A stretch of 64,000 bases of DNA from Fimbriimonas sp. (GTDB taxonomy: Bacteria > Armatimonadota > Fimbriimonadia > Fimbriimonadales > Fimbriimonadaceae): assembly GCA_029866005.1 (NCBI GenBank), contig JARXAE010000033.1:1-64000 (forward strand), read 5' to 3'. The notes beneath the pieces were generated by a model. The model saw only the letters and a program-made list of their open reading frames with translations, was not told the origin of the DNA and ran no database searches. Positions 6,415 to 52,688 of this stretch are shown here, piece by piece; within the stretch, counting starts at the first letter, position 1; each line of letters begins with the position of its first letter. Made by a program: the position numbers and the translations under genes.

Positions 6415-7359
6415 TTAGCCCGGTTTCTTGTCGAGAATAGATTCTTTGTAAGCCTTCTCAAACTCCGGTGAAGCGATCTTGATATCCGCTTTCTGCCGAG
6501 CTTCTTTGAGCAACTTTGAAACATCGTTCTTGGCCGAACCCTTGCGAACGAGGAGTTCACGACGCAGATCTTCTTTAAGATCAGCGTCTAAAGGACGCGT
6601 AACTCGTGCAAACACCTCTTCGACGAAGAACTTCACCAAAAGCGTGTCGCTGCTCTTGAGCCAAGCGGTGGTGTCACCCTTTTTCAGCTTGGTAACGGCG
6701 TCCTTGACGTTTGAACTTAGCTGGTCCAAAGGGATATCTCCGTACATTCCACCAACTCGGCTCGTCACGTCTTTGCTCAGGAGAGCTGCGGTGGCAGCGA
6801 ATGTCTTACCTGCCTTCAGCTCGGCATCGACCTCTTTTGACTCTGACTCGGCGTTCACCGCAATCACCCGCAGTCGGACCATAGGGGGGCGGGTGAACCG
6901 TACGTCTTTAGCCAAGTCATAAAGGTTCTTGATCTCCGTATCGGTAACCAAAACGCCCTCGGTTTGAAGTTTAAAGTTGGCGAGATTTAACCGCACCACT
7001 GACCTGTACTCTTCTTTTGTGCGTCCGGTTGACGTAAATCTGTCGAGTAACCCAGGTTCCCGACGTTGGATCATCGCCAGTTCAGCATCAATTTCGGCTG
7101 GCGTTGGTTCAACTCCTCGCTCCTTAGCGATCTGCAACGTTAATCGCTCGTTGATGATGAAGTCAACGGTCGCCAGACCAGGGAAGACTTCGATGAAGTT
7201 CCCGTCTCGGCTCGCCTTGCCGATACCCGGCAAGTACTCCATTCTCCGCACGTAATCAGCCCGAGAAACCTTCTCGCCATTGATTTCGATCATGGTATCG
7301 CTTTGCGCTCGCGCAAAAGCACCAACGAGCAGAGTTGCGGCGAGAAGAATTGATTTCAT
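6415..7359 (-). CDS. exported SurA/PrsA-like peptidyl-prolyl isomerase (parvulin type)
   Basis: 314 residues. The first ~18 residues (MKSILLAATLLVGAFARA) form a signal peptide with an A-R-A|Q cleavage site, so the protein acts outside the cytoplasm. The N-terminal chaperone-like helical region includes VDFIINERLTLQIAKERGVEPT, the usual SurA/PrsA layout, and the parvulin segment follows with FAATAALLSKDVTSRVGGMYGDIPLDQL. It would assist folding of exported or outer-membrane proteins. It lies 16 nt downstream of etfA and 11 nt upstream of mazG. The parvulin domain is somewhat divergent, so catalytic activity is likely but not certain. Confidence 0.85.
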   Translation of the reverse strand: MKSILLAATLLVGAFARAQSDTMIEINGEKVSRADYVRRMEYLPGIGKASRDGNFIEVFPGLATVDFIINERLTLQIAKERGVEPTPAEIDAELAMIQRREPGLLDRFTSTGRTKEEYRSVVRLNLANFKLQTEGVLVTDTEIKNLYDLAKDVRFTRPPMVRLRVIAVNAESESKEVDAELKAGKTFAATAALLSKDVTSRVGGMYGDIPLDQLSSNVKDAVTKLKKGDTTAWLKSSDTLLVKFFVEEVFARVTRPLDADLKEDLRRELLVRKGSAKNDVSKLLKEARQKADIKIASPEFEKAYKESILDKKPG

Positions 7360-11713: not shown

Positions 11714-12278
11714 CGCCGATTGGTTGATCGTCGGTCTCGGCAACCCCGGACCCGAGTACTCCGGAACGCGCCATAACATCGGCTTCGAAGTGATTGATGC
11801 AATTTGCGAGAAGCACGGAATCAAACTGGACAAAGCAAAGCACAAATCACGTTACGGGCTTGGAGTCATTGAGGGGACAGGGGTTTGCTTAGTGAAACCA
11901 ATGACGTTTATGAACCTTAGTGGTCAGGCCGTTGCGCCACTGCTGAAAGAACACGGACTCAAGCCAGATCGACTGTTAATCATCGCCGATGAGCTTGATC
12001 TCCCTCTCGGAAAACTCCAACTCAAGCCTAAAGGCGGCGCCGCCGGACACAACGGTCACAAGAGCGTCAAAGCTCTCATCGGTACTGAGGAGTACCCTCG
12101 GCTCCGCTTCGGAATCGACTCAACTCGCAAGGAAGACACCATCGACTTCGTGCTCTCGAAGTTTCACCCCGAAGAAAGAGTGGATATCAACCAGTTGCTC
12201 AAGAAGGCCGTCAAAGGAATTGAAGTCCTCATGGAACAGGGCTTTGAACGGGCTCAAAACTTGGTCAACGAAGGCTAA
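11682..12278 (+). CDS. pth: peptidyl-tRNA hydrolase
   Basis: 198 residues from the ATG at 11682. Signature LIVGLGNPGPEYSGTRHNIGF with catalytic His31, then KPMTFMNLSGQAV and GGAAGHNGHKSV, all typical of bacterial Pth, which frees tRNA from peptidyl-tRNA dropped by ribosomes. The frame reaches back to 11640 but those residues read as part of the uppP tail and precede the conserved start by too far. It overlaps uppP by 32 nt at its start and the convergent TPR gene by 4 nt at its end. Confidence 0.95.
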   Translation: MFRKKSPAPVNADWLIVGLGNPGPEYSGTRHNIGFEVIDAICEKHGIKLDKAKHKSRYGLGVIEGTGVCLVKPMTFMNLSGQAVAPLLKEHGLKPDRLLIIADELDLPLGKLQLKPKGGAAGHNGHKSVKALIGTEEYPRLRFGIDSTRKEDTIDFVLSKFHPEERVDINQLLKKAVKGIEVLMEQGFERAQNLVNEG

Positions 12279-13810
12279 CTTGCCAGCAAGAACGGCTTGT
12301 CTGGTCGAACGAATCTGAGATCCACTCGGACAACCAAGTCCGGATCAACTGCCATCCAAGGAAATCCCTCGATCGCTGCGAGCGCATTTTCAAATGTCTC
12401 AGGGGATATATCCTGCGAGGCAACTATAAACTCCGAACCGGAATACCGGCCGACGAGCGAGCCTTCAGGCAACCCCACTGAAATGGCCGACGCGACTCGA
12501 GAAAGTACCTCATCGCCGACCTTTCTGCCAAACCGACCATTGATGATATCTAGGTTTCGTACGTCGAAGACAGCAACAGTTGGAGACTCAATTTTTTTGA
12601 GTTGAGTCATGAATTCTGTACGGTTTAGTGCACCAGTCTGGGAATCAACATTAGAGATCAGCGAGAGATGCCCACAATGCGCTCGGACTTGGTCCTCGCT
12701 ATAAGTCCATCCAGTCTCATGCAACATCACCTGAGAATCGTCAAGCAGAGTCTCGTTGAGTCCAATGGTAAAGTCGTGCATGTGCGCCCAGTAGTCAGAC
12801 CGTTGAATCTGAATCTGCTTGTCAAACTCAAGAGCCTTCCACAAAGCGCGTATTGCTCCTTGGTAGTCGTCCGAATTCTCGCAGACTTCGGCTAGCCATT
12901 GGTGTAGACATGCCAAGTCATCCGAAGAGGTCGAAGCTGGCGCATGAATGATCGCGGCAACAATCTGATCCTTGGCTGCTGAGACGTCACCGAGAAGGAA
13001 CCTTGTATATCCGATCAGACCCTGAATCCGTGCCTCAGTCCGGAAGCCTCCCAGCCGCGTCGAAGCCTCTGCTGCTTGCTTGAAGTTTGCCATTGCATCC
13101 AACGGGCGATTCTGTAACAAGAACGCTTCTCCCAGAGCTCTAAATGCTGCTTCGTACGAGTTCGGAGAGAGTTCAGAGGACCGTTGTTCCAAAACCTTTA
13201 GAAGCAGAGAAGTTCCGATCTGAGCATCGACTAATGCGTATCCCGTCTCTCCCACTTGGTTTCTAGCCCACGCCCGTCGGACATATACTTGAGCTAGCGA
13301 AACTCGAAGATCATCCTCGGATTCTCGATCACCGAGCTGGTCTACGATTTCAAGAGCACTAATTCGGCACCGGATGGCGTGATCCAGCAACCCCAGCGTG
13401 GAGTAACTTTCTGCATAGTGCATGAGAATCCAAGCGATGCCACGCATGTCCCGTACCTGACGGAAGTATTCCAGCGCACTTTGCCAATCGCCAAACGCCT
13501 CAACTGGCTTACCCTGTTCCAAAGACAACCAGCCCCGAGTCTGATGTATTCGACCCATGACATACGTCAGCCTCAGTTCGAATGCAACACCCATTGCATC
13601 ATGCAAGTGCTTAAGCGCATCCTCTCGCCTCCCTAGGCAGGCGTAAGCCGAGCCGAAAGCCGCTAGCGCGTACGCTGAAGTTTGGTAGTCGCCGGGGTTC
13701 GAGAATTCGATCGCAGATTTTGCGAGTTCAATCGCCCGATGTGGCACACGGCTACTCAGCTCAAGTGCGAGCTTTCCATCGGCAAGGGCTTGTTCGTGCT
13801 GTTCGGGCAT
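12275..13810 (-). CDS. TPR-repeat protein with degenerate GGDEF domain
   Basis: 511 residues, cytoplasmic. Residues ~1-340 are helical TPR-like repeats (YALAAFGSAYACLGRREDALKHL, HQTRGWLSLEQGKPVEAFGDW, ALGEAFLLQNRPLDAMANFKQA). Residues ~380-511 have the GGDEF fold: SQTGALNRTEFM, FDVRNLDIINGRFGRKVGDEVL, then RYSGSEFIVA where the catalytic GGDEF loop should be. GG is replaced by SG and D by S, so diguanylate cyclase activity is doubtful; a c-di-GMP or GTP-sensing role, or a pure interaction role, is more likely. The TPR-plus-GGDEF architecture is common. It converges on pth with a 4-nt overlap. Confidence 0.85.
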   Translation of the reverse strand: MPEQHEQALADGKLALELSSRVPHRAIELAKSAIEFSNPGDYQTSAYALAAFGSAYACLGRREDALKHLHDAMGVAFELRLTYVMGRIHQTRGWLSLEQGKPVEAFGDWQSALEYFRQVRDMRGIAWILMHYAESYSTLGLLDHAIRCRISALEIVDQLGDRESEDDLRVSLAQVYVRRAWARNQVGETGYALVDAQIGTSLLLKVLEQRSSELSPNSYEAAFRALGEAFLLQNRPLDAMANFKQAAEASTRLGGFRTEARIQGLIGYTRFLLGDVSAAKDQIVAAIIHAPASTSSDDLACLHQWLAEVCENSDDYQGAIRALWKALEFDKQIQIQRSDYWAHMHDFTIGLNETLLDDSQVMLHETGWTYSEDQVRAHCGHLSLISNVDSQTGALNRTEFMTQLKKIESPTVAVFDVRNLDIINGRFGRKVGDEVLSRVASAISVGLPEGSLVGRYSGSEFIVASQDISPETFENALAAIEGFPWMAVDPDLVVRVDLRFVRPDKPFLLAS

Positions 13811-29583: not shown

Positions 29584-32500
29584 TTAGTCCCTCTTCCTGA
29601 AGAGAATATCGATTTCGACGCCGTGGCCGTCCTCTTTAAGCTTCTCTTCGCCCGTGGGATCAAAGTCCACCTGTTCGGCAAGGGTCAGTTTGCGTTCGCG
29701 TCGGTTGCGACCCTGTCTTCGACGACCTGTCGAAGTCTGGATCGCGCCTGGAGCCAGAGAAGCATCCTCCTCATAGTCGTCATCGTGGTTTTGCAGGTAC
29801 CAGTCGTCGATTCCTACATCGTCCGTGGACTCGCCGCCGTTCGACCATTCATCAAGTCGCATGATCGGAACATCAAACGTGCTCACGTCGATTCGAACGT
29901 TAGACTCGCGCTCCGGAAGCTCTGCCATATGAAGGAGCTGCCGAGGATCAGCCTCAAGGATTCGCCGAATCTCATCAGTTGGCCCGATGAGGTAGTTCAG
30001 GGTTGTACCATCGGCCGCCGTGAAGCGAAGCGAATTGGAATCAACCACTGCCCATTCTCCGGTTTGTAGGTTGTACGCGCTCCACTTACCCGGAAGCGTA
30101 ATCGTCCGCTGTCCATCGCCACAGCAGTGCACAGTAAGGAACGGAGCCCGGACGTGAACCACATCATCCGAGAAGCTGTAAACATGCGCTCCGGCTTTCT
30201 GAGCAAGGGCTCGGATCAGGGCTGGATTACAAACCGGCTCGCCAAGGAAAACGCTCGTCCATTTTGCCCCGGTCTCATCGCCGACATTGTCCTTCACGAC
30301 TAGGCTTGGTAGACCAGTCTGGATGTATTCTCCAAGAACCGCACCTTCCTCAGGAATCGCAAAATATGTCGGTTCAACAATGGTATCCGTTGAAATTGAT
30401 GCATTGGGGAAGGCCTGAGCGATCGGGTTACGGCGGTCGAGAACCTGGGTTCCCGCCTTACTGAAGATCGGCTGAGGCTTAATCGCAATTCCCGTGACCT
30501 CACGAGCTCTTTCCAGAGTTTCACGACCGGAGTCAAAAACGCCGGCCGTGTAGAACCAAGCTAGGAGCTTGCCATCTCGGTGTAGCCGCTGCTTGATCGC
30601 CGATCGAAGATCAGACCGAATATCCCAAGCGTTGAGGAACAGATAGACCTTGCTCTCAGGGAACTTCTCGCGGTGAGTGAGGTCGCTCAGCAAGTAGAAG
30701 CCAACGCTGACTCCGGCCCGAAGGACCGATTCTCGAACCGAACGCACCAGATTGGTAAACGGCTTGGTTCCCATGATGTAGCCCATTGTGCGTTCGTCGA
30801 TGAAGACCGCCACGTCAGGCTCTGAAGGGTTTGCCGCCATCGCCCTCACGAGGGTTTGGCGAAGAGTTTTCGCCCGAGACCAAACTGAATTGGTGGTGAG
30901 CCATCCGTTGCCCCATTGATCACTCCAATTCACTCCAGTTCCGTGCGCTAAGGCAGCTCCCAGTCCGCGGAGGTGAACGCTCTCGAGCGCCTGCGGAGTT
31001 CGCATCACCGGGTTGTGTGTATCAGGTTCGGGGCGGGTGGCCAGCGAGGTCTTAAAGTCCTCAAGGGTTACCGCCAACTTTCCGTTAAGAACAACTGAAT
31101 CGATTGGAAGAGTAAAGCTCGCCACCCCGCCCGGAGTTCGGTCTCGATACGAAGGAACCGCCGAAACGAAGTCGATTTCTGGGGTGCGCAGAACCTTTCC
31201 GAGAGCGAGTTGACCACTGGTCGGATAGGTGTTTTCCAAGGAAAGACCGTATCGGACACCAACCAAGAACCGTCCTTCAGAAGCTTCCTTGATCGCGTAT
31301 GAAAGATCGGCCAGCCTGTGAACCGTGATATCGCTCAGGAAGAGGTTGTAATCCACGATCGCCCTCTCTCGACGATCCGACCGGATGAGCCGCTGGTCCT
31401 TCAGTCCATCGGTGTGGAAGTCAGGAATTCGAATGGTATCGAACGAAGCGGTTCCATCAAACCAGGATGCCCGAAGCAGAACTTCATCACCTTGGTAGCG
31501 CTCGCGAACCCATTCTCGGAACTTACGTTTGCTGGCAAGCGAAATATCAAAGCCCTGAGATTCGGCGATCAGCCAGTTGTCTCGATCAATTTCAATTCCC
31601 AGGAAGTTGTTGCCAAGATCAGCCTTCTGAATCGAAGCGACCAGACCCCTCATGAGGGTTTCCACATGCTTCCAATACTTGTCATCACTCAGGCTGGGCT
31701 CTGAAAGGTCATTCTTTCGATCCCGATAGACGCCCTCAGGGAAGTCGATTTCCCAACCCTTCGCTGCACAAAGGTTGAGGTGAACCATAACTTGGGCGTT
31801 GCGAGTAATCGCCGTGATCTTCTTCGTCAAATCAACAACTTGCTGAGAGATTGCCGAGAAATGGTGCTCATCGCAAATCGCGTCAAATCCTAGGGCGAAC
31901 ACTTCGAGTCCCGCCTCTGCGGCTTGCTTGATCTCGTCAAGGATTGTCTCGACTCGTGAGGAGTCTTGAGGTTGCGCGTAGAACCAGAAGTTCGGGTAGA
32001 CCTTGTGATCTCTCACGAGCGTTGGTAGACCTTCCCTGACAACGACCTGGGGCGCATCGGCAGGAATATCAATCAGTGCCCTTGGGGGGAGAATCGTCTT
32101 CTCCGGCTTCGGCTTTGGTTCTGGCTTCGGCGTCGGTTCGCGCTCGGTAATCGTCGTACGCACTTGTTTCGGTGCTGGTTTTGGAGCGTCGTCCGAGATG
32201 GTTCTCATCTTGACAACAAGATCTTCGAACTCAATGATCTCAGTTGGATCAAATTCTAAAAGTGGGCGAGATTCGTCCCGGTCATCACGATCTCGGTCGC
32301 GGCTCTGACGTGGAGCAGCTGGCTCATCGTTGACTTTTCTGGTTTCGACTCGCTGGACATCCTCTCGCTCACGTTGCGGGCGATCACGACGTCCTCGCTC
32401 AGGTCGGGGCTCGCGCTCTTGCCTTGGCTCGCGCTCGGCCGGTACGGAGTCGCGGGAACGAAACACCGGAATCGGAAGCTCTTCATCCCAGTTTTCTGGC

Positions 32501-32910
32501 TCACTTGCCTTCTTCGGTGCAAGTTTGCGCTCAGGTTTTGCTAAGACGGTGGGTTCTTCTTCGACGACTGCCACCTTCGGCACGGCCCTTCGGGGACGGA
32601 AAGCGAGCGAGACATCGTCACTAATCAGCGATTGAAGCTCTTCAGCGATATCGCTTGTTGCTTCCGCGTGCTCTTCGACAAGTGCGGCCAGAGACACTTC
32701 TGTCTTCGGCTTACCCAGCTTCATCCGAACGGGCGCAACTTCTACCTTTTGGCGGATCTCCGGTAAGGTTTCCACAACAACCGCAGCGGGCTCCGCTTTC
32801 GGCTTAGCAACTCGCTTGACAGCGGGCTTTTTAGTGGTCTTGGGTGCGCTCTCGGCGACCGGGGTGGTTTCAGAAATCTGTTCGACAGGAGTGGTTTTCT
32901 TCCGTGGCAT
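29584..32910 (-). CDS. GH42-like TIM-barrel protein with long disordered N-terminus
   Basis: 1108 residues with no signal peptide. Residues 1 to ~300 are low-complexity and highly charged (KPKAEPAA, RDRDRDDRDESRP, PKPEPKPKPEK), like the flexible extensions of RNA-associated proteins. Residues ~305-1000 resemble GH42 beta-galactosidases: YPNFWFYAQPQ, FALGFDAICDEHHFS, SLASKRKFREWVRERY, and DVAVFIDERTMGYIMG in the trimerisation-like domain. The position of the GH42 acid/base 'NE' reads GIEIDRDNW, so catalysis is doubtful. The tail holds an acidic stretch (HDDDYEEDA) and a basic one (GRRRQGRNRRERK). It overlaps the HAD gene and sits 3 nt from era. Function unknown; I do not claim a substrate. Confidence 0.75.
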   Translation of the reverse strand: MPRKKTTPVEQISETTPVAESAPKTTKKPAVKRVAKPKAEPAAVVVETLPEIRQKVEVAPVRMKLGKPKTEVSLAALVEEHAEATSDIAEELQSLISDDVSLAFRPRRAVPKVAVVEEEPTVLAKPERKLAPKKASEPENWDEELPIPVFRSRDSVPAEREPRQEREPRPERGRRDRPQREREDVQRVETRKVNDEPAAPRQSRDRDRDDRDESRPLLEFDPTEIIEFEDLVVKMRTISDDAPKPAPKQVRTTITEREPTPKPEPKPKPEKTILPPRALIDIPADAPQVVVREGLPTLVRDHKVYPNFWFYAQPQDSSRVETILDEIKQAAEAGLEVFALGFDAICDEHHFSAISQQVVDLTKKITAITRNAQVMVHLNLCAAKGWEIDFPEGVYRDRKNDLSEPSLSDDKYWKHVETLMRGLVASIQKADLGNNFLGIEIDRDNWLIAESQGFDISLASKRKFREWVRERYQGDEVLLRASWFDGTASFDTIRIPDFHTDGLKDQRLIRSDRRERAIVDYNLFLSDITVHRLADLSYAIKEASEGRFLVGVRYGLSLENTYPTSGQLALGKVLRTPEIDFVSAVPSYRDRTPGGVASFTLPIDSVVLNGKLAVTLEDFKTSLATRPEPDTHNPVMRTPQALESVHLRGLGAALAHGTGVNWSDQWGNGWLTTNSVWSRAKTLRQTLVRAMAANPSEPDVAVFIDERTMGYIMGTKPFTNLVRSVRESVLRAGVSVGFYLLSDLTHREKFPESKVYLFLNAWDIRSDLRSAIKQRLHRDGKLLAWFYTAGVFDSGRETLERAREVTGIAIKPQPIFSKAGTQVLDRRNPIAQAFPNASISTDTIVEPTYFAIPEEGAVLGEYIQTGLPSLVVKDNVGDETGAKWTSVFLGEPVCNPALIRALAQKAGAHVYSFSDDVVHVRAPFLTVHCCGDGQRTITLPGKWSAYNLQTGEWAVVDSNSLRFTAADGTTLNYLIGPTDEIRRILEADPRQLLHMAELPERESNVRIDVSTFDVPIMRLDEWSNGGESTDDVGIDDWYLQNHDDDYEEDASLAPGAIQTSTGRRRQGRNRRERKLTLAEQVDFDPTGEEKLKEDGHGVEIDILFRKRD

Positions 32911-41096: not shown

Positions 41097-41552
41097 ATGG
41101 ACGTTCGCCGTATCATCGCAGAGAGTTACTTAGCAGCAGGGTTTACGGACGAGTTCACCGTCAAGCTCGCGGCGATTTCTACGCTGAAGCACTTTAAAAG
41201 TGGCGAGTACATGATGCGCGACGACGACGATTCTCGGGACCTCATGATCCTCGCCGATGGGAAGGCAGAAGTTAGGACCCAGGCTGAGGATGTGATTGGT
41301 TTTCTCAAATCCCCGATGCCTTTCGGTGAAGTTGCGTTTCTCGACGGAAAGCGTCGATCTGGTTCAGTCTTTGCGGTTCAGGATTGCACAGTAGTGCAGA
41401 TTCCCGAGCAACCGCTTCGAGACCTGCTGCGAAGCGAGCCAGAGATGGCCGTTCGAGCTCTGATGAACCTAAGCCAAATTTTGTGCGACCGCCTTCGAAA
41501 AGCGAATCAACAGATCGCCGCCCTCAACGCAATTGAAGAGGCAACGCTCTAG
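41097..41552 (+). CDS. stand-alone cyclic-nucleotide-binding domain protein
   Basis: 151 residues from ATG 41097. CAP_ED cupin: GEYMMRDDDDSRDLMILADGKAEV, then the phosphate-binding cassette FGEVAFLDGKRRSGSVFA and VVQIPEQPLRDLLRSEPEM, followed by a helix LCDRLRKANQQIAALNAIEEA. There is no DNA-binding or catalytic domain, so it is a bare sensor module that probably binds another protein through its C-terminal helix. Its stop overlaps the convergent GGDEF gene stop by 4 nt. An earlier ATG at 41064 is possible. Confidence 0.85.
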   Translation: MDVRRIIAESYLAAGFTDEFTVKLAAISTLKHFKSGEYMMRDDDDSRDLMILADGKAEVRTQAEDVIGFLKSPMPFGEVAFLDGKRRSGSVFAVQDCTVVQIPEQPLRDLLRSEPEMAVRALMNLSQILCDRLRKANQQIAALNAIEEATL

Positions 41553-42583
41553 GCGGCTTTCTGAGCTTGCTTGTGTTGGTACATCCGAACGTCAGCCTCA
41601 TGAAACGCCGCTCCAGCCGTAATGGTTGAACGAAGCTGCACAATTCCATAGCTCGCACTGATGGCGATCGTCTCCGTCTTGAACTGCAAAGGCTTCTTTT
41701 CCAAGACGTTGTTGACTCGCTCAAGTTTTGCTTCTGCTTGAACTTTGGTTCCTTTAAAGATAACCGCAAACTCATCTCCGCCGATGCGCGCGACTTGGGT
41801 CCCATTTCCACCCAGAACGCCAAATGTTTCACTCAGACGCTGAGCAAAGAGCACCAACGCCGCGTCTCCTGCCAGATGACCATGAGTGTCATTGATCGAC
41901 TTAAAGTCGTTGAGGTCAAGCACTGCTAAGTAGTACTCGTCACCAACCGCAGTCTTTGAGATCGCCGTCGCAAGCATAAACTCAAACGCTGATCGGTTGC
42001 TGAGTTTGGTCAGGTGATCTATCCTGACACTGCGTTCCGCGACGCGAAGCTTAGATCTTAAATCGTCAATTTGCGAAGTGCACACCTTTCGGATGACCTT
42101 TGAGGACTCCTTGTGTTCTTGGATCGCGGCCGAAAGGACATTCACTTCATGCTTGAGACCCTTCACGACTTCTTCGAAGCTCTGGGCTTCTGTCAACTTC
42201 GTCATTCTCACGGAAGACTGTTCGGTCACCTCTTCAAGCGAGTCTCCCGAGTTGACCGCTCCATCGAGAGATTGAAGAAGTTCTCGAAGGCTGTTGTGAG
42301 TTGCTTCTATTGACTTCTCGATCGCTTTCCTTTGCGACCGGGCGAAGTGTTCAACGACTTGACCAAGCACATCCGCAACCTGCTCGAAAGTTTGGTCAGT
42401 CGCCTCACAAGCAGTTGCGTCTTTACAAAGCGAGTCAATCTTAGTGCAGAAATCTTGCGAAATCGGATCGTTTGGCAAGATAACGAGCTCCTTATATCTC
42501 GATGTCGCGCAAACTCCGAGCTTCACTGCACTCGGGCTGCTCGGTGCAACTTCATCAAACGCTCCCTTCTTCTTCCACAACAT
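41549..42583 (-). CDS. diguanylate cyclase (GGDEF domain)
   Basis: 344 residues from ATG 42583; the frame continues to 42883 but this part reads as non-coding. N-terminal region with two helical segments and Ser/Thr/Glu-rich spacer, then a coiled coil (KEHKESSKVIRKVCTSQIDDLRSKLRVAERSVR), then the GGDEF domain: DHLTKLSNRSAFEF, LDLNDFKSINDTHGHLAGD and ARIGGDEFAVIF. The catalytic loop is intact, unlike the copy at 12275. No RxxD inhibitory I-site lies five residues before it. It would make c-di-GMP. Overlapping stops with the cyclic-nucleotide-binding gene suggest shared context only. Confidence 0.93.
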   Translation of the reverse strand: MLWKKKGAFDEVAPSSPSAVKLGVCATSRYKELVILPNDPISQDFCTKIDSLCKDATACEATDQTFEQVADVLGQVVEHFARSQRKAIEKSIEATHNSLRELLQSLDGAVNSGDSLEEVTEQSSVRMTKLTEAQSFEEVVKGLKHEVNVLSAAIQEHKESSKVIRKVCTSQIDDLRSKLRVAERSVRIDHLTKLSNRSAFEFMLATAISKTAVGDEYYLAVLDLNDFKSINDTHGHLAGDAALVLFAQRLSETFGVLGGNGTQVARIGGDEFAVIFKGTKVQAEAKLERVNNVLEKKPLQFKTETIAISASYGIVQLRSTITAGAAFHEADVRMYQHKQAQKAA

Positions 42584-42801
42584 GGCTGTGTAGCTATTTC
42601 CGGATTCTAGGTTCAAAGTCCCTGTGAGATTTGCGAGGGAGCAACAAAAATGTTTGAGAATGATGTGGGATTTGCGTCGGACACTAGCGCGGGACGAGAT
42701 TGTGCAATATAATGGCAGAGCTAGGCGAAGTGCGCCCGATATTGTCGGGCTCCTTTGAATAGACGTAAGGATGCAATAGAGGTGTCTTGTTAGTGTCTTC
42801 A

Positions 42802-45800
42802 ATGAATACCATCCGTAATTCAGCACTGAGTGGTGCGTTGTTGCTTGGATTGGCTTCGGTCGTCGGTGCACAGGTGGCGTCAAGCTCCACCGCCACTGAC
42901 TTCAAAAGTCGACTCAATCGAACCGCATTCACCCAAAATAAGGGTCAATGGAATTCTGAAGCTCTCTTCTCTGGCTCAGCCAATGGAATGGATCTTTGGA
43001 TTTCGAAGAAAGGTTTAGTCTTCCAGTACAACCGAACAAAGAACGATAAGGCCAGCCAATACGGCGGGCATACCGTTGGAATGTTGTTCGAGGGTGCGGA
43101 GAAGTTCTCAGCCGTAGGTGTGAAGTCGACTGGAGTCCGACAGTTTGTGTCGGCCGGAAAGTCCGGTACCGTTACAACGAATAACTACGAAAAAGTTCGT
43201 TTGAACGGAATCTATAAAGGCGTCGACGCAATTGCCTACTTCGAAAATAAGACTCCTCGTTACGACTTCATTGTCAAGCCAGGTGCTGACGTTAACTCAA
43301 TCAACCTGAACTTTAAGGGAGCATCCTCACTAAAGGTTGTCGATCCTCACCGACTCGAAGTCGGAACCGTGCTTGGTGCAAAGTACCAACAGGGACTCTT
43401 CGCATACCAAATGATCGGTGGGAAGCAAGTTTCTGTTCCCGTCAAGTTTAAGAAGATCGACGCTACCCACATCGGGTTCGAAGTCGGTGCCTACGATCAT
43501 TCCAAGTCGCTCGTTATTGACCCACTCGTCTACGGAACTTACTACGGCGGCGATCAAGGTTATGACGAAGTGCGCGGAGTCGCCGCTGACACGCTCGGTT
43601 CGGTCTATCTCACTGGATACACTCGCTCGGCAATCTATCCGATTCTTTTTGGTCCATTCGGTTTCGGTACCGCCGTTGGAAGGGACGCTTTTGTGTCTAG
43701 GTTGCAAGGCGATGCCTACAACCATGACTATTCAATGCTGATTTCAGGATCGGGCAACGAACAGGGCAATTTTATCCAGCTCGACCCGCTAGGAAATGTC
43801 TGGGTAGTAGGATCGACGAACTCGCCAAACTTCCCGCCGTTTCAATCTGCTCCATCAACTGCCGTTGGAAACATTTGGATTTTGCGCTTGACCAAGTCGC
43901 CGACCACTGTCTTGACTCCGGTGAACAATGGATCTTGGTCACTGTTTCGCATTGGGGATTCGACGGTAACGCCTCGAATCTCCGCAATCCGATCATTCAG
44001 TATCCGCCCCGACGCCACGGCTGTTTCAGGAGCAACGATTCGTTTACTTCTGACAGGTTCCTGTACTCCAGCCGGGGTATCCGAGCTCGGTGCCGCCACT
44101 GGAAACAAGGGTGCTTTCTACCTGTCGATTGACTTCGATGAGGCGACGAACCTTTTCACTCCATTCAGAGCGGCGTCTGGTTATATCCAAACGGGTGGAA
44201 CAGCTACGCCGACGATTACCGGCGGTTCATATGACAGGTCAGGGAACTTCTTCCTCAACGGAACGCTGAACGCGACCGGGAACTCAGATACCGCTGGTGC
44301 AAACCCGGTCTTTACAACCACTCCAGGGGGCTATACAAATAGCAGGCTGCAAAGAGGCCGCGACATCTGGATTCAAAAGCACTCTCCAAGCGCCGGCATG
44401 ATCTGGTCGTCGCTTCTAGGTGGAGCTGATGACGACATCACCGAAGGTTTCTTCAAGACGCACAACGCGAACGGTACAGAGGTTGGTGGAACTACGTGTG
44501 CTACAGACCCTGCCGGTAACGTCTACATCTTGGGTCGATCTCCGTCGTTTGATTTTCCTCGAACACGCGGTGTCTTTGGCGAATCCTTCATCTCAGGAAA
44601 CAACTTCATGACGGTGACGAAGATCAGTGCTGATGGTAGTGCGATTTTGTACTCCACTCATCTGAGAAATGGCGGAACCGTTAGCGGATCCGGGATTGCG
44701 GTTGACCCTCGTGGAAATGCCTACATTACTGGTGTCGCAAGTGCGGTCTATTTCATCAACGGAACCCCTCCGGATCCAGTTGAACCCAACGCGGTTACCG
44801 GAGTTGGATCAATTCCGCTCCAAGACCCTATCAGAGCTGCGTACACCCAGCCCGCTACCCCAGAAACCAGAACCAACGACGGCTTCTTCTTGATCCTCAA
44901 CGCTGATGCGACGGGACTCTTGAGAGGCACCTACGTTGGTGGAATCCTCGATGAGGGCGTGTTTGCCCCCTACGTTGATAATCTGGGTGACGTTTGGGTT
45001 TATGGTTGGGTCGATACTTGGCGACGCTACCGTGTATTCAGTTCAACTGGAACACCGACCGACCGACCAGATAGCAATGGAAGAACAGGTGGGCTTGATA
45101 CCGGGTTCATCACAAATCTTGCTTTCAAGCAAGGTGCGGAGCCTAACGGCGGCGGCGGTGTCGAGAACGAGACCAATGGCTACTTCCTCACCACGATGGC
45201 GGAAGTTGGCACAAACATCTCTTATCGACGCGATGGCTTCTTGCTTCGCTTCCGTGAATCACTTCCTCTCATCAGCAACCTGACCATGAATCCGGCGAGC
45301 ATCGCTGGAGGAGATCCGTCGGGACTTGCAAGCCCCCCAGCTTCCACAGGCACGGTCACTCTGTCCGCACCTGCACCAACGGGCGGTTCAACGATCACGC
45401 TGACGCTGGACAACGCGGCCCTCGCCTCGTTCCAACCAGCATCCAGCCTGACTACGACAACAATCACTGTCAACGAAGGCGCAACTACTGCAAACTTCCA
45501 AGTCTTTGGTCGAGTTGTCACCGGTAACCAAACCGTCAGTGTCAAGGCAGATTACGGCGGAAACGTACGAATCGCGTCACTTCAAATCACCCCGTGGCTG
45601 AGGTCTCTCGTCCTGACACCGACCAGTGTCATCGGCGGCAACACCTCTTCTGGAACTATCTCTCTCAACGCGCCAGCGCCAGCCGCTGGAGCGGTCATTA
45701 CCCTCGGAACAGATCGACCCGATCTCGTCACCTTCCCAGGTGGCGGAACTGTCACAGTTCCTGGCGGAGCAACGCAAGTCTCATTTGTGATTGATACCAA

Positions 45801-47789: not shown

Positions 47790-48878
47790 TTACTCGGCTG
47801 ACTCGTGCTGGGTAGCGACCACTAGGATATCGACTGTCTTGAGCTGTTTCGCTAATTCAAGCAAAAGAGACCCTTTCAGGAAGTCTTGTAGCTTTGTCCG
47901 ATCGCTGTGACCAAGAATGATTTGGGTCACATTGTTCTCTTGAACATATTTGATGATGGAGGAACCAACATCACCTTTCAAAGTGACGGTTGGAATTCCC
48001 AGGCGCTCGCAAAGCATGAAGTCATCCTGAAGAATTCTCGCAGCCGTGTCTGGCAACTTTGGTTCTTCAACATAAACTGCCTTCACCTCGCCCTGCATTT
48101 TCTGGGCAAGTCTCCAGCCTCGACGAATCAACCTCAGGGACGATCGGGTCGGAGTAATGCAGATCAGAACACGGTCGCTCGTTTGCCACGGCCTAGCGAT
48201 ACGCTCGCGCTTGCGCCAAGCGATGAGATCCTCATCAACGCGTCCAGCGATTTCACGCATCGCCATCTCTCGCAAGGCGTTTAACTTCACCTCATCGTAT
48301 CTTCCCTTAAGTTCTGCTTCGACAGACTCAGTCGGAACGATTTCTCCGCGCTTGACGCGGTTCCTGAGCGCCTGAGGCGTAACATCAACAAGTTCCACCT
48401 CATCGGCATGGTGAAAAAGTCTGTCTGGAACCGTCTCTTCGACCCGCCGACCGGTGATTTCAAAGATGTCGTCGTTCAACGATTCAAGCGACTCAACGTT
48501 CATCGTTGCCAAAACGTGAATCCCTTTTTGCAACAACTCCTCAACATCTTCCCACCTCTTCGCGTGGGCCGAACCTGGAACGTTGATATGAGCAAGGTTA
48601 TCCACCAGAACCGTATGTGGGGCCAGCTTTAAGATCGAGGGAATATCAATCTCTCGTCCCTCAGTTCCTCCGTACTGGAAAACGAGTGGGGGAATCGTTT
48701 GCAAACCCGCGCTGAAATCATCCGACAAAAGACGGTCCCCTGCGTTGATGATTGCAATAACACAGTCCTCCCCGCGTGCAGCACGCCGACGCGCTTCCTC
48801 AATCATCACTTTCGCCTTTCCGACGCCAGGGGCGTAGCCCAAAAAGATCTTTAGTTTTCCCGGAGTATTGGATGGCAT
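47790..48878 (-). CDS. stand-alone KdpD N-terminal sensor plus USP domain (no kinase)
   Basis: 362 residues. KdpD sensor domain at 1-230: Walker A-like GYAPGVGKA at residues 14-22 (the usual Thr after Lys is Ala), ATMNVESLESLNDDIFEITG, then PDRLFHHADEVELVDVTP. Residues ~230-360 are a universal-stress-type alpha/beta domain (RVLICITPTRSSLRLIRRGW, IILGHSDRTKLQDFLKGSLLLELAKQ). There are no transmembrane helices, DHp or ATPase domains, so it cannot autophosphorylate. In full-length KdpD the two domains sense K+ and c-di-AMP. A response regulator lies 3 nt upstream. No kdpFABC genes are in the window. Confidence 0.9.
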   Translation of the reverse strand: MPSNTPGKLKIFLGYAPGVGKAKVMIEEARRRAARGEDCVIAIINAGDRLLSDDFSAGLQTIPPLVFQYGGTEGREIDIPSILKLAPHTVLVDNLAHINVPGSAHAKRWEDVEELLQKGIHVLATMNVESLESLNDDIFEITGRRVEETVPDRLFHHADEVELVDVTPQALRNRVKRGEIVPTESVEAELKGRYDEVKLNALREMAMREIAGRVDEDLIAWRKRERIARPWQTSDRVLICITPTRSSLRLIRRGWRLAQKMQGEVKAVYVEEPKLPDTAARILQDDFMLCERLGIPTVTLKGDVGSSIIKYVQENNVTQIILGHSDRTKLQDFLKGSLLLELAKQLKTVDILVVATQHESAE

Positions 48879-48881
48879 ACG

Positions 48882-49634
48882 TTAGTCCGCAAGAGCGACC
48901 GTCATCATGCGGTCTATCCATTCAGTATGACGTTTCAAGAGGGGATCGATCATTAACGTTGCTGAAGGAGGAATCGACTTTTCCGTTCGCAGATGGGTTT
49001 CAAGCTCGAATTCACACATCGCCTGGAAGAATCGTTTTCCGCACGGGACCACGTCCGCGTCGATGTAAGCCTTGATGAGCTCCTGCACCACCGCGGGAAG
49101 AATCACCTTCACATATCTCGGAGAGTCGTTCTCTTTGATAACTTCAAAGGTGCAAGTGAGATCACCGTAAATGTCGTCTAACGCCTCTTCATTCAGTTCG
49201 AAGTTAAATCCACCGACGTTTCTACGAGAAAACTCGCGTGATACCGTCGCGATGGGAGTGTGCTTTCCGTCTCTCTCGAGTGCCGATCGAACTGCGTCCC
49301 GCAGAGCTTCCGGTGCAAAAGGCTTGCGAAGAAAATCGGTAGCTCCCCGGTTCATCGCCTCTATGGCTGTTTCGCAACCTCCATAGCCCGACACGATGAT
49401 CACTTTCGCCGAAGGATCTCGTCGTATCATCTCCTGCTCGACTTCAATCCCGGTCATATCCGGCATTTTGTAGTCAGAAACCACGATATCGAAGTTGGCG
49501 CCATTGCCATAAACGGCGAGTCCGTCACTACCGCTGTGAGCAGTTGTAACGTTGTATCCAGAGTTGGAAAGTACCAACTCCATCATCTTTAAAATGCAAG
49601 ATTCGTCGTCGATGACGAGAACGTTTGAACTCAA
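48882..49634 (-). CDS. response regulator with receiver domain and unknown output domain
   Basis: 250 residues. Receiver domain at 1-120: acidic pocket D9/D10, phosphoacceptor Asp54 in VVSDYKMPDMTG, and Lys103 in LRKPF. Residues ~130-250 are predicted compact alpha/beta (GGFNFELNEEALDDIYGDL, RYVKVILPAVVQELIKAYIDADVV) with no DNA-binding helix-turn-helix visible and no match I recognise. It precedes the KdpD-like sensor by 3 nt, so they are co-transcribed. No histidine kinase is found nearby; the phosphodonor is unknown. Confidence 0.9.
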   Translation of the reverse strand: MSSNVLVIDDESCILKMMELVLSNSGYNVTTAHSGSDGLAVYGNGANFDIVVSDYKMPDMTGIEVEQEMIRRDPSAKVIIVSGYGGCETAIEAMNRGATDFLRKPFAPEALRDAVRSALERDGKHTPIATVSREFSRRNVGGFNFELNEEALDDIYGDLTCTFEVIKENDSPRYVKVILPAVVQELIKAYIDADVVPCGKRFFQAMCEFELETHLRTEKSIPPSATLMIDPLLKRHTEWIDRMMTVALAD

Positions 49635-49794
49635 ATATCCTCCGTGCTTCCGGTCGCCCTTCTATATACGTTTCAGAAGGTGAAAGAGATGTGCACTTCC
49701 AAAGATTGATTATGGTTTGTTGAACACTCATCAAAGACTGTTATTTCGAAGATTCCGGACAATCTATTGAGCACGCGAGCGGCACTTCCGAACG

Positions 49795-49800
49795 TATAAA
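49795..49800 (+). promoter_or_regulatory. -10 box next to GTG start (possible leaderless transcript)
   Basis: TATAAA ends 8 nt before the GTG at 49809, with no ribosome site between. As at 41082, this would make a leaderless or near-leaderless transcript. No -35 match at normal spacing. Confidence 0.35.
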
Positions 49801-49808
49801 CTAGAGTA

Positions 49809-50489
49809 GTGAAGTCGCTCAGGTGGATAGGAATCGGGATAGGGCTTGTTTTTGGCTACTTCACATACAACGTGATCCATCTCGCCCTCACTCGAGGAAA
49901 AGTCGATCCAACAATGGATTTCTCCAAACCTCGCCACCCCGTCACTCCCGAAATGGCGGCGGAGGTCAAGAAACTCAACCTCAAAACGGCCAAACTCTTC
50001 AAACTCCCGAACACAAGGGGCAAACTCACAGCCATCGGAGGCTCCGGACCCCGCCCACAGTTCATATACGCTATCAAGAAAGGCTGCCCTTGCTCATTTG
50101 ACGCAGAGCCACTGATGCAGGCACTTTACAAGCACTTCCAGGGGAAAATCGAGTTTGTTGGCGTTACTGATGCCGAGCAAAAAGATGCCCTGAAATGGGA
50201 AAGTGATCTGCGTGTTCCCTATGCAGTCGTCAGCAACCCCAAAGTTGAAGTGATGCAGGAGTACCAGTTCCCAGCTTCGGTCTACTGTCATCTTGTTGAC
50301 ACGAGAGGAGTCATCGTCAAGCGATGGGCCGGCTACAGCCGCTCCTATCTGGCGGAAATGAACGTCGAGATGGCAACACTCCTCAAAGAAAAACCACGTC
50401 CTTTCGACTCACAATACGCCCCGGAAGCCAACACCAGCGGGTGTAGTTACGAAGGCTATAAGCCAGTGTTTGTTACCCCCGAAAACTGA
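49809..50489 (+). CDS. membrane-anchored thioredoxin-like protein with CPC motif
   Basis: 226 residues, GTG start. Residues 1-27 form a transmembrane anchor (WIGIGIGLVFGYFTYNVIHLAL). A thioredoxin/AhpC-type domain follows with the pair C93-P94-C95 in KKGCPCSFDAEP, then FVGVTDAEQKDAL, YAVVSNPKVEVMQEYQFPASVYCHLVDTRG and VKRWAGYSRSYL. The CPC spacing differs from the standard CxxC, so disulfide chemistry may differ. Likely a periplasmic redoxin. The small gene downstream at 50534 begins 45 nt later. Confidence 0.8.
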   Translation: MKSLRWIGIGIGLVFGYFTYNVIHLALTRGKVDPTMDFSKPRHPVTPEMAAEVKKLNLKTAKLFKLPNTRGKLTAIGGSGPRPQFIYAIKKGCPCSFDAEPLMQALYKHFQGKIEFVGVTDAEQKDALKWESDLRVPYAVVSNPKVEVMQEYQFPASVYCHLVDTRGVIVKRWAGYSRSYLAEMNVEMATLLKEKPRPFDSQYAPEANTSGCSYEGYKPVFVTPEN

Positions 50490-50533
50490 TTGGGGATAAA
50501 TACTTCTTCGCTCGTTAACAATACTGGAGCACA

Positions 50534-50869
50534 ATGGAGTCTATGGGAGTGAAGCTAACCGATCCATACGAGTTCCAAAATGAGTTCATCTCGATCCGAT
50601 TCCAAAACGGGCTCCCTCCTGAAGTCGGAATCAATGGAGTCCGGGCCGAAGATGTCATCGACGTCCTCATCGCAAAACTGAATCTCTACCAAAATGGTGA
50701 GCTCGCCTGCAAAGAGAACGATCAAGCCCTTGAATCACTCACGATTGCTCGAGATGCTCTCGTTCGCCGACGACAGCGCCGTCAAATCCAGGGCGTTTAT
50801 CACACTTTGACTCCGCACGCGGATCGTACCGAAGACGTTCACGAAGAGTTCTCCGCAACGGGTGCTTGA
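50534..50869 (+). CDS. small protein with Acb2/Tad1-like helical hairpin
   Basis: 111 residues; ATG 50534 with TGGAGC as ribosome site. Pattern: EVGINGVRAEDVIDVLIAKL (residues 30-49), then ACKENDQALESLTIARDALVRRRQRR (58-83). I recall the same framework, 'vGvNG.q.EDvi.vl...L..fQ.G.faC.EN..Al..l..A...L..R...R...Gv.gt', in small phage and bacterial proteins annotated as Acb2/Tad1 domain proteins, whose phage members bind cyclic nucleotides or NAD-derived signals and block CBASS/Thoeris defence. This is recollection of a family and not a search result. It lies between a redoxin and an M61 peptidase, with no phage genes around. Confidence 0.6.
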   Translation: MESMGVKLTDPYEFQNEFISIRFQNGLPPEVGINGVRAEDVIDVLIAKLNLYQNGELACKENDQALESLTIARDALVRRRQRRQIQGVYHTLTPHADRTEDVHEEFSATGA

Positions 50870-50915
50870 AGTTAACAACTAGAATTACTGGTACTGTTCG
50901 GGTTAAACTCGCTCC

Positions 50916-52688
50916 ATGCGAACATTCACCTTCGCGGCACTATCTCTCGTCGCCGCAACCAGTCTAGCCGACCTCAAATACACGGTCTCTCCTGGCTCGT
51001 CGGATACCAAGTTGCGAGTTGAACTAGAGCTAATTGCCAGTGCCGACAAAGTTGAGTTCCAAATCCCCAACTGGGCGCCAGGTTCCTACCGTTACGACGA
51101 CGTCTGGAAGCGAGTCACGGATGCGAAAGCAGAAGGTGGAGTGAGCGTCAAGACCGAAGGCAAGAACCCACTGATCACCACCTGGACAATTGCCGCTCAG
51201 AAAGGGAAGAAGGCTTGGATCAGCTACGAAATCCCCGTTCAGTACGCCAATAAGACCGGTCACTTCTCTGGTCCATCGTTCTATATGTACCCGGTTGGTC
51301 GTACCCAAGAACCGTGCCAAGTAGAGTTCAAGTTCGCACCCGGAACCCCCATCATCACCGGGATGAACCCCGTACGAGGGAATCAGGCTCTTTACAAAGT
51401 TTCGACGTACGACGTGCTTGCGGATAATCCCGTCACATGGGGCGACTACACCCTCGACACTTACAAGTCGTACGGCAAAACCCACTTTATCGCCTACCGG
51501 GGGATCCCGAAGAAGGACGTGGACCGCGCCTATGTCATTAAAGCCTGCAAGTTTGTTTCAGACATGCAAGCAGACTTCTTCGGCGGTAGCGTTCCTTATG
51601 ACCGCTACGTCTGGCATTTCAACGTTAATGATGCTCCAGATGGTGCTGGGGGACTCGAGCACCTCTCGAGTACCCAAATTAGCCTTGCTAGCGGTGTTGG
51701 ACCGGGTGCAGTGTCCGTCCTGTCCCACGAATTTTTCCACCTCTGGAACGTCAAGCGCATCCGCTCCAAAGCCCTGGGTCCCTTCGACTACACCACCCAG
51801 CCACAAACTGGCGCGCTTTGGTGGCTTGAAGGGGTCACCGATTACTACGCTCACACTCTCCTTGGACGCTACGGTTGGTACGGCAAGAATGAACGTCATC
51901 CCGACGCAATCGCTAAACTGTATGCTGATGCAGTCCAAAACCTGACCGCCGTTCGCGCAAGGCCGGCTCGTCTCGACGTCTCGCCCTATGAAGCGAGCTA
52001 TCGAGTTCGGGACGCGGCAGACGGAAGAGGGAACAGTCAAGGCTACCAAGTCAGCTACTACGATACAGGTTGGCTAGTCGGCCTCGTTCTCGACATCGAA
52101 ATGCTCGATCAGACCAGTGGTAAGCACAGTCTTGATGAAGTCGAACTAGCCCTCTGGGAGCAGTGCAAAGACGACAAGCCCGGATTCGAAGAAGACGACA
52201 TCCGCCGGCACCTCGTCCGCTTTGGCGGGTACCAGATGGGCACCTTCTACGATGATGTCGTGATGAAACCCGGCGAACTTCCCGTTGAGAAGCAACTCGC
52301 AAAGATTGGGAAGGAACTCTTGTCCGTTGACGAGAAGTACGGATCAATCCCGTTCTCCCTTCGAGTCAGCCTAGACGATAAGGCCCCAAGGGTATCCCTC
52401 TCGGAAGACGCGGCAATTCCTCAAGGATCGATCGTAACTAAGATTAACGGAACAGACGTCACTGGAGACAACGTCCGTTCCCAGACTACTCTCTATCGGG
52501 CTCTGCAACGCAGTTCTAAGCCAGGTGACATCCTCAAAGTAACACTCAAAGACGGCGACAAGACCAAAGAAGTCAACATCAAAGTTGGCGAAGCAACCCG
52601 GAAAGTCCAACGAATCGTCTCGGTTCAAAATCCTTCAGAGCGTCAGCTGAAGCTCCGAAAGATCTTTGAGGCTAAACGGCGCCGTTAA
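50916..52688 (+). CDS. M61-family metallopeptidase with C-terminal PDZ domain
   Basis: 590 residues. Signal peptide MRTFTFAALSLVAATSLA. Beta-rich N-terminal domain (FQIPNWAPGSYRYDDVWKRV), then the zinc site HEFFH at 271-275 and Glu305 in LEGVTDYYA, the gluzincin pattern. A PDZ-like domain is near residues 470-560 (GSIVTKINGTDVTG). M61 enzymes (glycyl aminopeptidase type) are exported. It overlaps the convergent orphan at 52685 by 4 nt. Confidence 0.93.
   Translation: MRTFTFAALSLVAATSLADLKYTVSPGSSDTKLRVELELIASADKVEFQIPNWAPGSYRYDDVWKRVTDAKAEGGVSVKTEGKNPLITTWTIAAQKGKKAWISYEIPVQYANKTGHFSGPSFYMYPVGRTQEPCQVEFKFAPGTPIITGMNPVRGNQALYKVSTYDVLADNPVTWGDYTLDTYKSYGKTHFIAYRGIPKKDVDRAYVIKACKFVSDMQADFFGGSVPYDRYVWHFNVNDAPDGAGGLEHLSSTQISLASGVGPGAVSVLSHEFFHLWNVKRIRSKALGPFDYTTQPQTGALWWLEGVTDYYAHTLLGRYGWYGKNERHPDAIAKLYADAVQNLTAVRARPARLDVSPYEASYRVRDAADGRGNSQGYQVSYYDTGWLVGLVLDIEMLDQTSGKHSLDEVELALWEQCKDDKPGFEEDDIRRHLVRFGGYQMGTFYDDVVMKPGELPVEKQLAKIGKELLSVDEKYGSIPFSLRVSLDDKAPRVSLSEDAAIPQGSIVTKINGTDVTGDNVRSQTTLYRALQRSSKPGDILKVTLKDGDKTKEVNIKVGEATRKVQRIVSVQNPSERQLKLRKIFEAKRRR

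Follow-up and report, generated by a model that had tools for sequence, protein, structure and literature searches.

Within the 64,000-nucleotide window analyzed here (positions 1 to 64,000 of contig JARXAE010000033.1 of Fimbriimonas sp.), the forward strand carries at 50534 to 50869 a gene for a 111-amino-acid protein that a preliminary description named an Acb2/Tad1-like candidate cyclic-nucleotide sponge encoded by the host. The locus raises the question of whether this protein belongs to either family (Tad1 is Thoeris anti-defense 1), whether its gene is a host gene or a stray phage gene, and what a bacterium would do with a protein of this kind.

The gene and its surroundings

The open reading frame has the coordinates first assigned to it, begins with ATG, and is preceded by GGAG just 5' of the start. 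It is not a chance open reading frame, because orthologues with 90% and 83% identity occur within the genus and, in comparison with the 90% orthologue, dN is 0.07 and dS is 1.41 (dN/dS of about 0.05). The gene is under strong purifying selection. The three motifs pointed out in the preliminary description, NGVRAEDVI, LIAKLNLYQNG, and ACKENDQAL...RRRQRR, are all present, but the first had been placed at residues 35 to 42 and was off by one; it runs from N34 to I42.

The gene lies 44 bp after a thioredoxin-like (AhpC-TSA) gene (49809 to 50489, forward strand), which adjoins it in the three closest species only, and 46 bp before an M61 aminopeptidase gene (50916 to 52688, forward strand), whose neighbor cluster is found again in 9 of the compared loci. 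No promoter or terminator consensus was found within 49600 to 51100. The earlier statement that no phage genes surround the gene holds, in that the scanned neighbors in the window are housekeeping genes (AlaRS, ArgRS, DnaK, a KH-domain GTPase, SMC, a T2SSE-type ATPase, fumarase, a flagellar hook-type protein, and a sugar ABC transporter). Two other genes of the window deserve separate mention: positions 29587 to 32910 encode a 1,108-amino-acid protein that has no Pfam match at all, and positions 47790 to 48878 encode a KdpD sensor domain fused to a universal stress domain, adjoining a response regulator gene. In other bacteria, the targets of c-di-AMP include KdpD proteins of this type.

Family assignment by sequence

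When the single sequence is compared with the PDB by phmmer, phiKZ gp184 is matched at an E value of 5e-9 and CmTad1 (8kbb) at 2e-7. A profile of 60 host relatives matches all solved Tad1 chains at E values of 1e-11 to 1e-16, with no non-Tad1 match in the PDB below 0.6. The homology with known Tad1 proteins (CmTad1, 8kbb; CbTad1, 7uav/8smd; phiKZ gp184) covers the C-terminal 75 residues. The protein is also matched at 5e-19 by phrog_2428 (PHROG 2428), a group in which Bacillus phage SPG24 is represented by its annotated Tad1. PHROGs gives this phage family no known function, and its definition, unlike the family described here, includes no host members.

Searches with Pfam, NCBIfam, and PADLOC give no significant match to the 111-amino-acid protein, and a plasmid search gives no match. 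Among the hairpin families, Tad1 is recovered by profile, but the Pfam family Acb2_Tad1_hairpin (PF24729) does not detect the protein. PF24729 also misses phiKZ Tad1 (L094:1036-1728), and for this reason surveys that use PF24729 will undercount. The phiKZ protein gp184 has been validated as an injected virion protein (PMC10449902), phiKZ Tad1 is described as injected and as sequestering cyclic nucleotide second messengers (PMC13282480), and the phage Tad1 gene is given as orf184 in a review (PMC12043709).

Predicted fold and conserved pocket positions

The AlphaFold2 model (49 sequences; pLDDT, 83.8) has three short N-terminal beta strands at residues 7 to 10, 13 to 15, and 20 to 23 (50552 to 50602, forward strand), followed by helices at residues 38 to 54 and 60 to 86 (50645 to 50791, forward strand), which form the two-helix hairpin that had been expected and which carry Y52, N62, R79, and R83. 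The order characteristic of the Tad1 family, antiparallel N-terminal strands and then two long helices, is thus found in the predicted model, which aligns to residues 11 to 124 of CbTad1. The top 20 Foldseek matches of the model in the PDB are all Tad1 chains (E values of 2e-6 to 9e-3), and beyond Tad1 chains nothing in the PDB is below 0.7. VIA-align gives a Z score of 10.4 against Tad1 over residues 1 to 94 (94 residues), versus 7.2 for the best unrelated chain. Matches to the model in BFVD include proteins named Acb2/Tad1 hairpin domain-containing. T4 Acb2 (Vs.4) shares the two-helix hairpin, but it has an N-terminal helix where the host model has strands, it has no significant sequence match, and its fold match is weak and nonsignificant (Foldseek E value of 4.1 and TM score of 0.30; VIA Z score of 5.8, within background). 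The Acb2 half of the original name is thus not supported, and we retain the Tad1 half, which profile, predicted fold, and pocket residues all favor. Homology and modeled fold together support the conclusion that the 111-amino-acid protein belongs to the Tad1 family.

The residues of cbTad1 that we take to form the Tad1 ligand pocket, F82, N92, R109, and R113, are equivalent to Y52, N62, R79, and R83 in both the phmmer and the profile alignments, where a single fixed offset in the PDB chain accounts for all four cbTad1 letters. All 60 aligned host sequences have F, Y, or H at position 52, and none departs from N62, R79, or R83. The family core motif, F-Q-x-G...G-x-N-G...E-D-V-I (residues 23 to 42; 50600 to 50659, forward strand), includes Q24, G26, G32, N34, and G35, which are likewise invariant; when six phage sequences are added in a second alignment, the invariant positions are Q24, G26, G32, N34, G35, Q53, C59, N62, A72, R79, and R83. 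As judged from these alignments, the putative Tad1 pocket positions (aromatic, Asn, Arg, Arg) are shown to be kept in all host sequences.

The host protein differs from Tad1 in having a shorter N-terminal sheet and an extra C-terminal tail. The sheet helps to form the pocket in Tad1 and is about 20 residues shorter here, and the annotation of some phage relatives reads "structural protein"; both observations are compatible with a fold that has been kept after nucleotide binding was lost, the protein now having a structural or scaffold role. We consider this quite improbable, since the pocket ranks among the best-conserved parts of the family and the phiKZ "structural protein" turns out to be the injected Tad1. 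The tail, RTEDxxxEFSATGA (50819 to 50866, forward strand), is conserved only in the genus of the window and a near neighbor, and within the genus it is kept while other parts of the protein vary. FSATGA was considered as a shared C-terminal tag and was rejected; the genome has a single instance of "FSATGA-stop" in the TCN-serine spelling.

Distribution and vertical inheritance

The gene is present in 62 of 85 Fimbriimonadaceae genomes (52 of the 70 good ones), including all 20 in the genus of the window, and the profile search finds the same set of carriers as the protein search. Across Armatimonadota, 67 of 291 genomes are carriers with the protein query and 68 with the profile, the additional one being a contig-edge fragment. 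Matches within the phylum are confined to one order, the named relatives being Fimbriimonadaceae/Fimbriimonadales. Roughly one in four genomes of the family do not carry the gene, so the lineage can do without it. It is mostly single copy among carriers, and it is single copy in the genome of the window; in one genus there are two copies in two separate conserved neighborhoods (L065/L066, L070/L071, L078/L079, and L080/L081). A record titled Methanoregulaceae archaeon (JADZEW010000008.1, locus L141) contains a Fimbriimonadaceae-type copy that is nearly identical to that of locus L139, and its title is probably wrong.

As an anti-defense protein, Tad1 is encoded by phages or prophages, and the closest known families of the 111-amino-acid protein are phage proteins, so the gene could be read as a recent prophage remnant or a stray phage gene. 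We regard this as extremely improbable. The window gene is not encoded by a phage or prophage: its neighbors are of the host, and each subclade has fixed, ordinary cellular neighborhoods around the gene. The distribution is order-wide, and the gene tree tracks genera with 11 changes, where the minimum possible is 9 and shuffling gives 32.6. In a tree from a short alignment with weak deep forks, the host sequences form one group separate from the phage sequences with a support of 90. Based on synteny, tree, and neighbors, we reject a prophage origin.

A second chromosomal lineage and phage relatives

A relative of 81 to 102 amino acids is encoded in nine Bacillus/Metabacillus genomes at one strictly conserved ypp-recU-ponA locus (L134, L136, L137, L138, L140, L143, L144, L145, and L149; match at about position 7001). 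On one side of this locus are yppG, DUF1798, DUF2515, recU, and a class A penicillin-binding protein gene; on the other are hsp20, PTS EIIA, an MrfA-type helicase, an RNase H-like exonuclease, and ypsA. Of the 80 genomes of that bacterial family, 17 have a match to the relative, two of the matches being partial or weak. The clear matches to its model are Tad1 only, and it has no equivalent of R83.

Some phage contigs encode Tad1-like proteins with the N-terminal motif of the host family, MDGSPALVE (L158:6001-6252; also L157, L159 to L161, L165, and L166); L158 also encodes endolysin, exonuclease, and HNH genes. These phage proteins may be a link between the phage and host branches.

Candidate ligands and possible roles

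We think it fairly probable that the gene encodes a Tad1-family protein that has been inherited vertically and domesticated by the host, and that this protein buffers or senses a signal by binding a cyclic nucleotide. Members of the Tad1 family form hexamers and bind gcADPR and cyclic di- or trinucleotides, and by analogy nucleotide binding is likely here. The protein would form an oligomer, and a cyclic nucleotide or a cyclic-ADP-ribose-type signal would sit between protomers, in contact with the aromatic Y52 and with N62, R79, and R83; the free level of the signal in the cell would then be lowered or read by the protein. Buffering is a putative role. As to the ligand, we infer candidates from the c-di-AMP (DisA-type) and c-di-GMP (GGDEF) synthase domains of the host, and defense signals are possible in relatives. 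Counting against this explanation are the shorter N-terminal sheet, the quarter of genomes that do not have the gene, the absence of SMODS and TIR_2 from the genome of the window, and the lack of a PF24729 score.

The genome of the window has no match to CD-NTase (SMODS) or TIR_2 proteins, so a CBASS or Thoeris signal of the host's own is not evident. Among relatives, all 13 genomes of the family with SMODS are carriers of the Tad1-family gene, and none of the 23 noncarriers has SMODS (Fisher P = 0.016). This agrees with a link to defense in which the cell keeps the protein as its own sponge, either to buffer it safely against CBASS-type signals that arise by accident or to trap nucleotide signals made by phages. 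Such a link is unlikely, however: the association within genera is weak (P = 0.067), SMODS is absent from 49 of the 62 carriers, and TIR_2, for which we reject a link, shows no association with the gene (31 of 62 carriers versus 12 of 23 noncarriers).

DisA-type c-di-AMP synthase is present in 70 of 70 good genomes of the family, that of the window included; being universal, it is not informative by its association with the Tad1-family gene. The GGDEF genes that had been claimed to be nearby are in the window at 41549 to 42883 and at 12275 to 13810. These synthases, together with a housekeeping-type distribution, mostly in single copy, and a tail kept within the genus, would suit a receptor rather than a sponge, one that passes a c-di-AMP or c-di-GMP signal to a partner contacted by the C-terminal tail. 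Nevertheless, no conserved partner gene adjoins the gene, the tail is absent beyond the genus and its near neighbor, and the reported binding of cGG and cAA by Tad1 is only weak (PMC12043709); we consider a receptor rather doubtful.

Comparison with other sponges and implications

Compared with the Tad1 proteins of phages, the buffering or sensing protein that we favor has the same predicted fold over residues 1 to 94 and the same aromatic/Asn/Arg/Arg pocket letters, while it is chromosomal, is vertically inherited, and shows no sign of an anti-defense role. Acb4 and Tad2 are also nucleotide sponges, but they have different folds: Acb4 reportedly shares no structural homology with Acb2, Tad1, or Tad2 (PMC11722364), and Tad2 is a tetramer of different build (PMC12043709).

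In the cited papers, Tad1 figures as a counter-defense protein of phages or prophages, and we found no paper on a host-encoded Tad1 in the open-licence literature. A chromosomal Tad1 relative suggests that hosts use such a nucleotide-binding protein for their own purposes. We raise tentatively the broader possibility that Tad1-fold proteins are established cellular binders of nucleotide signals that were fixed independently in Fimbriimonadales and Metabacillus and act in normal host signaling (e.g., c-di-AMP/c-di-GMP homeostasis), so that hosts and phages would share the family, with the phage sponges as one of its branches. A practical warning is that a Tad1 match by itself is no marker of a prophage. 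If our favored reading is true, hosts would use the Tad1 fold to buffer or sense nucleotide signals, and sponges may have a cellular counterpart.
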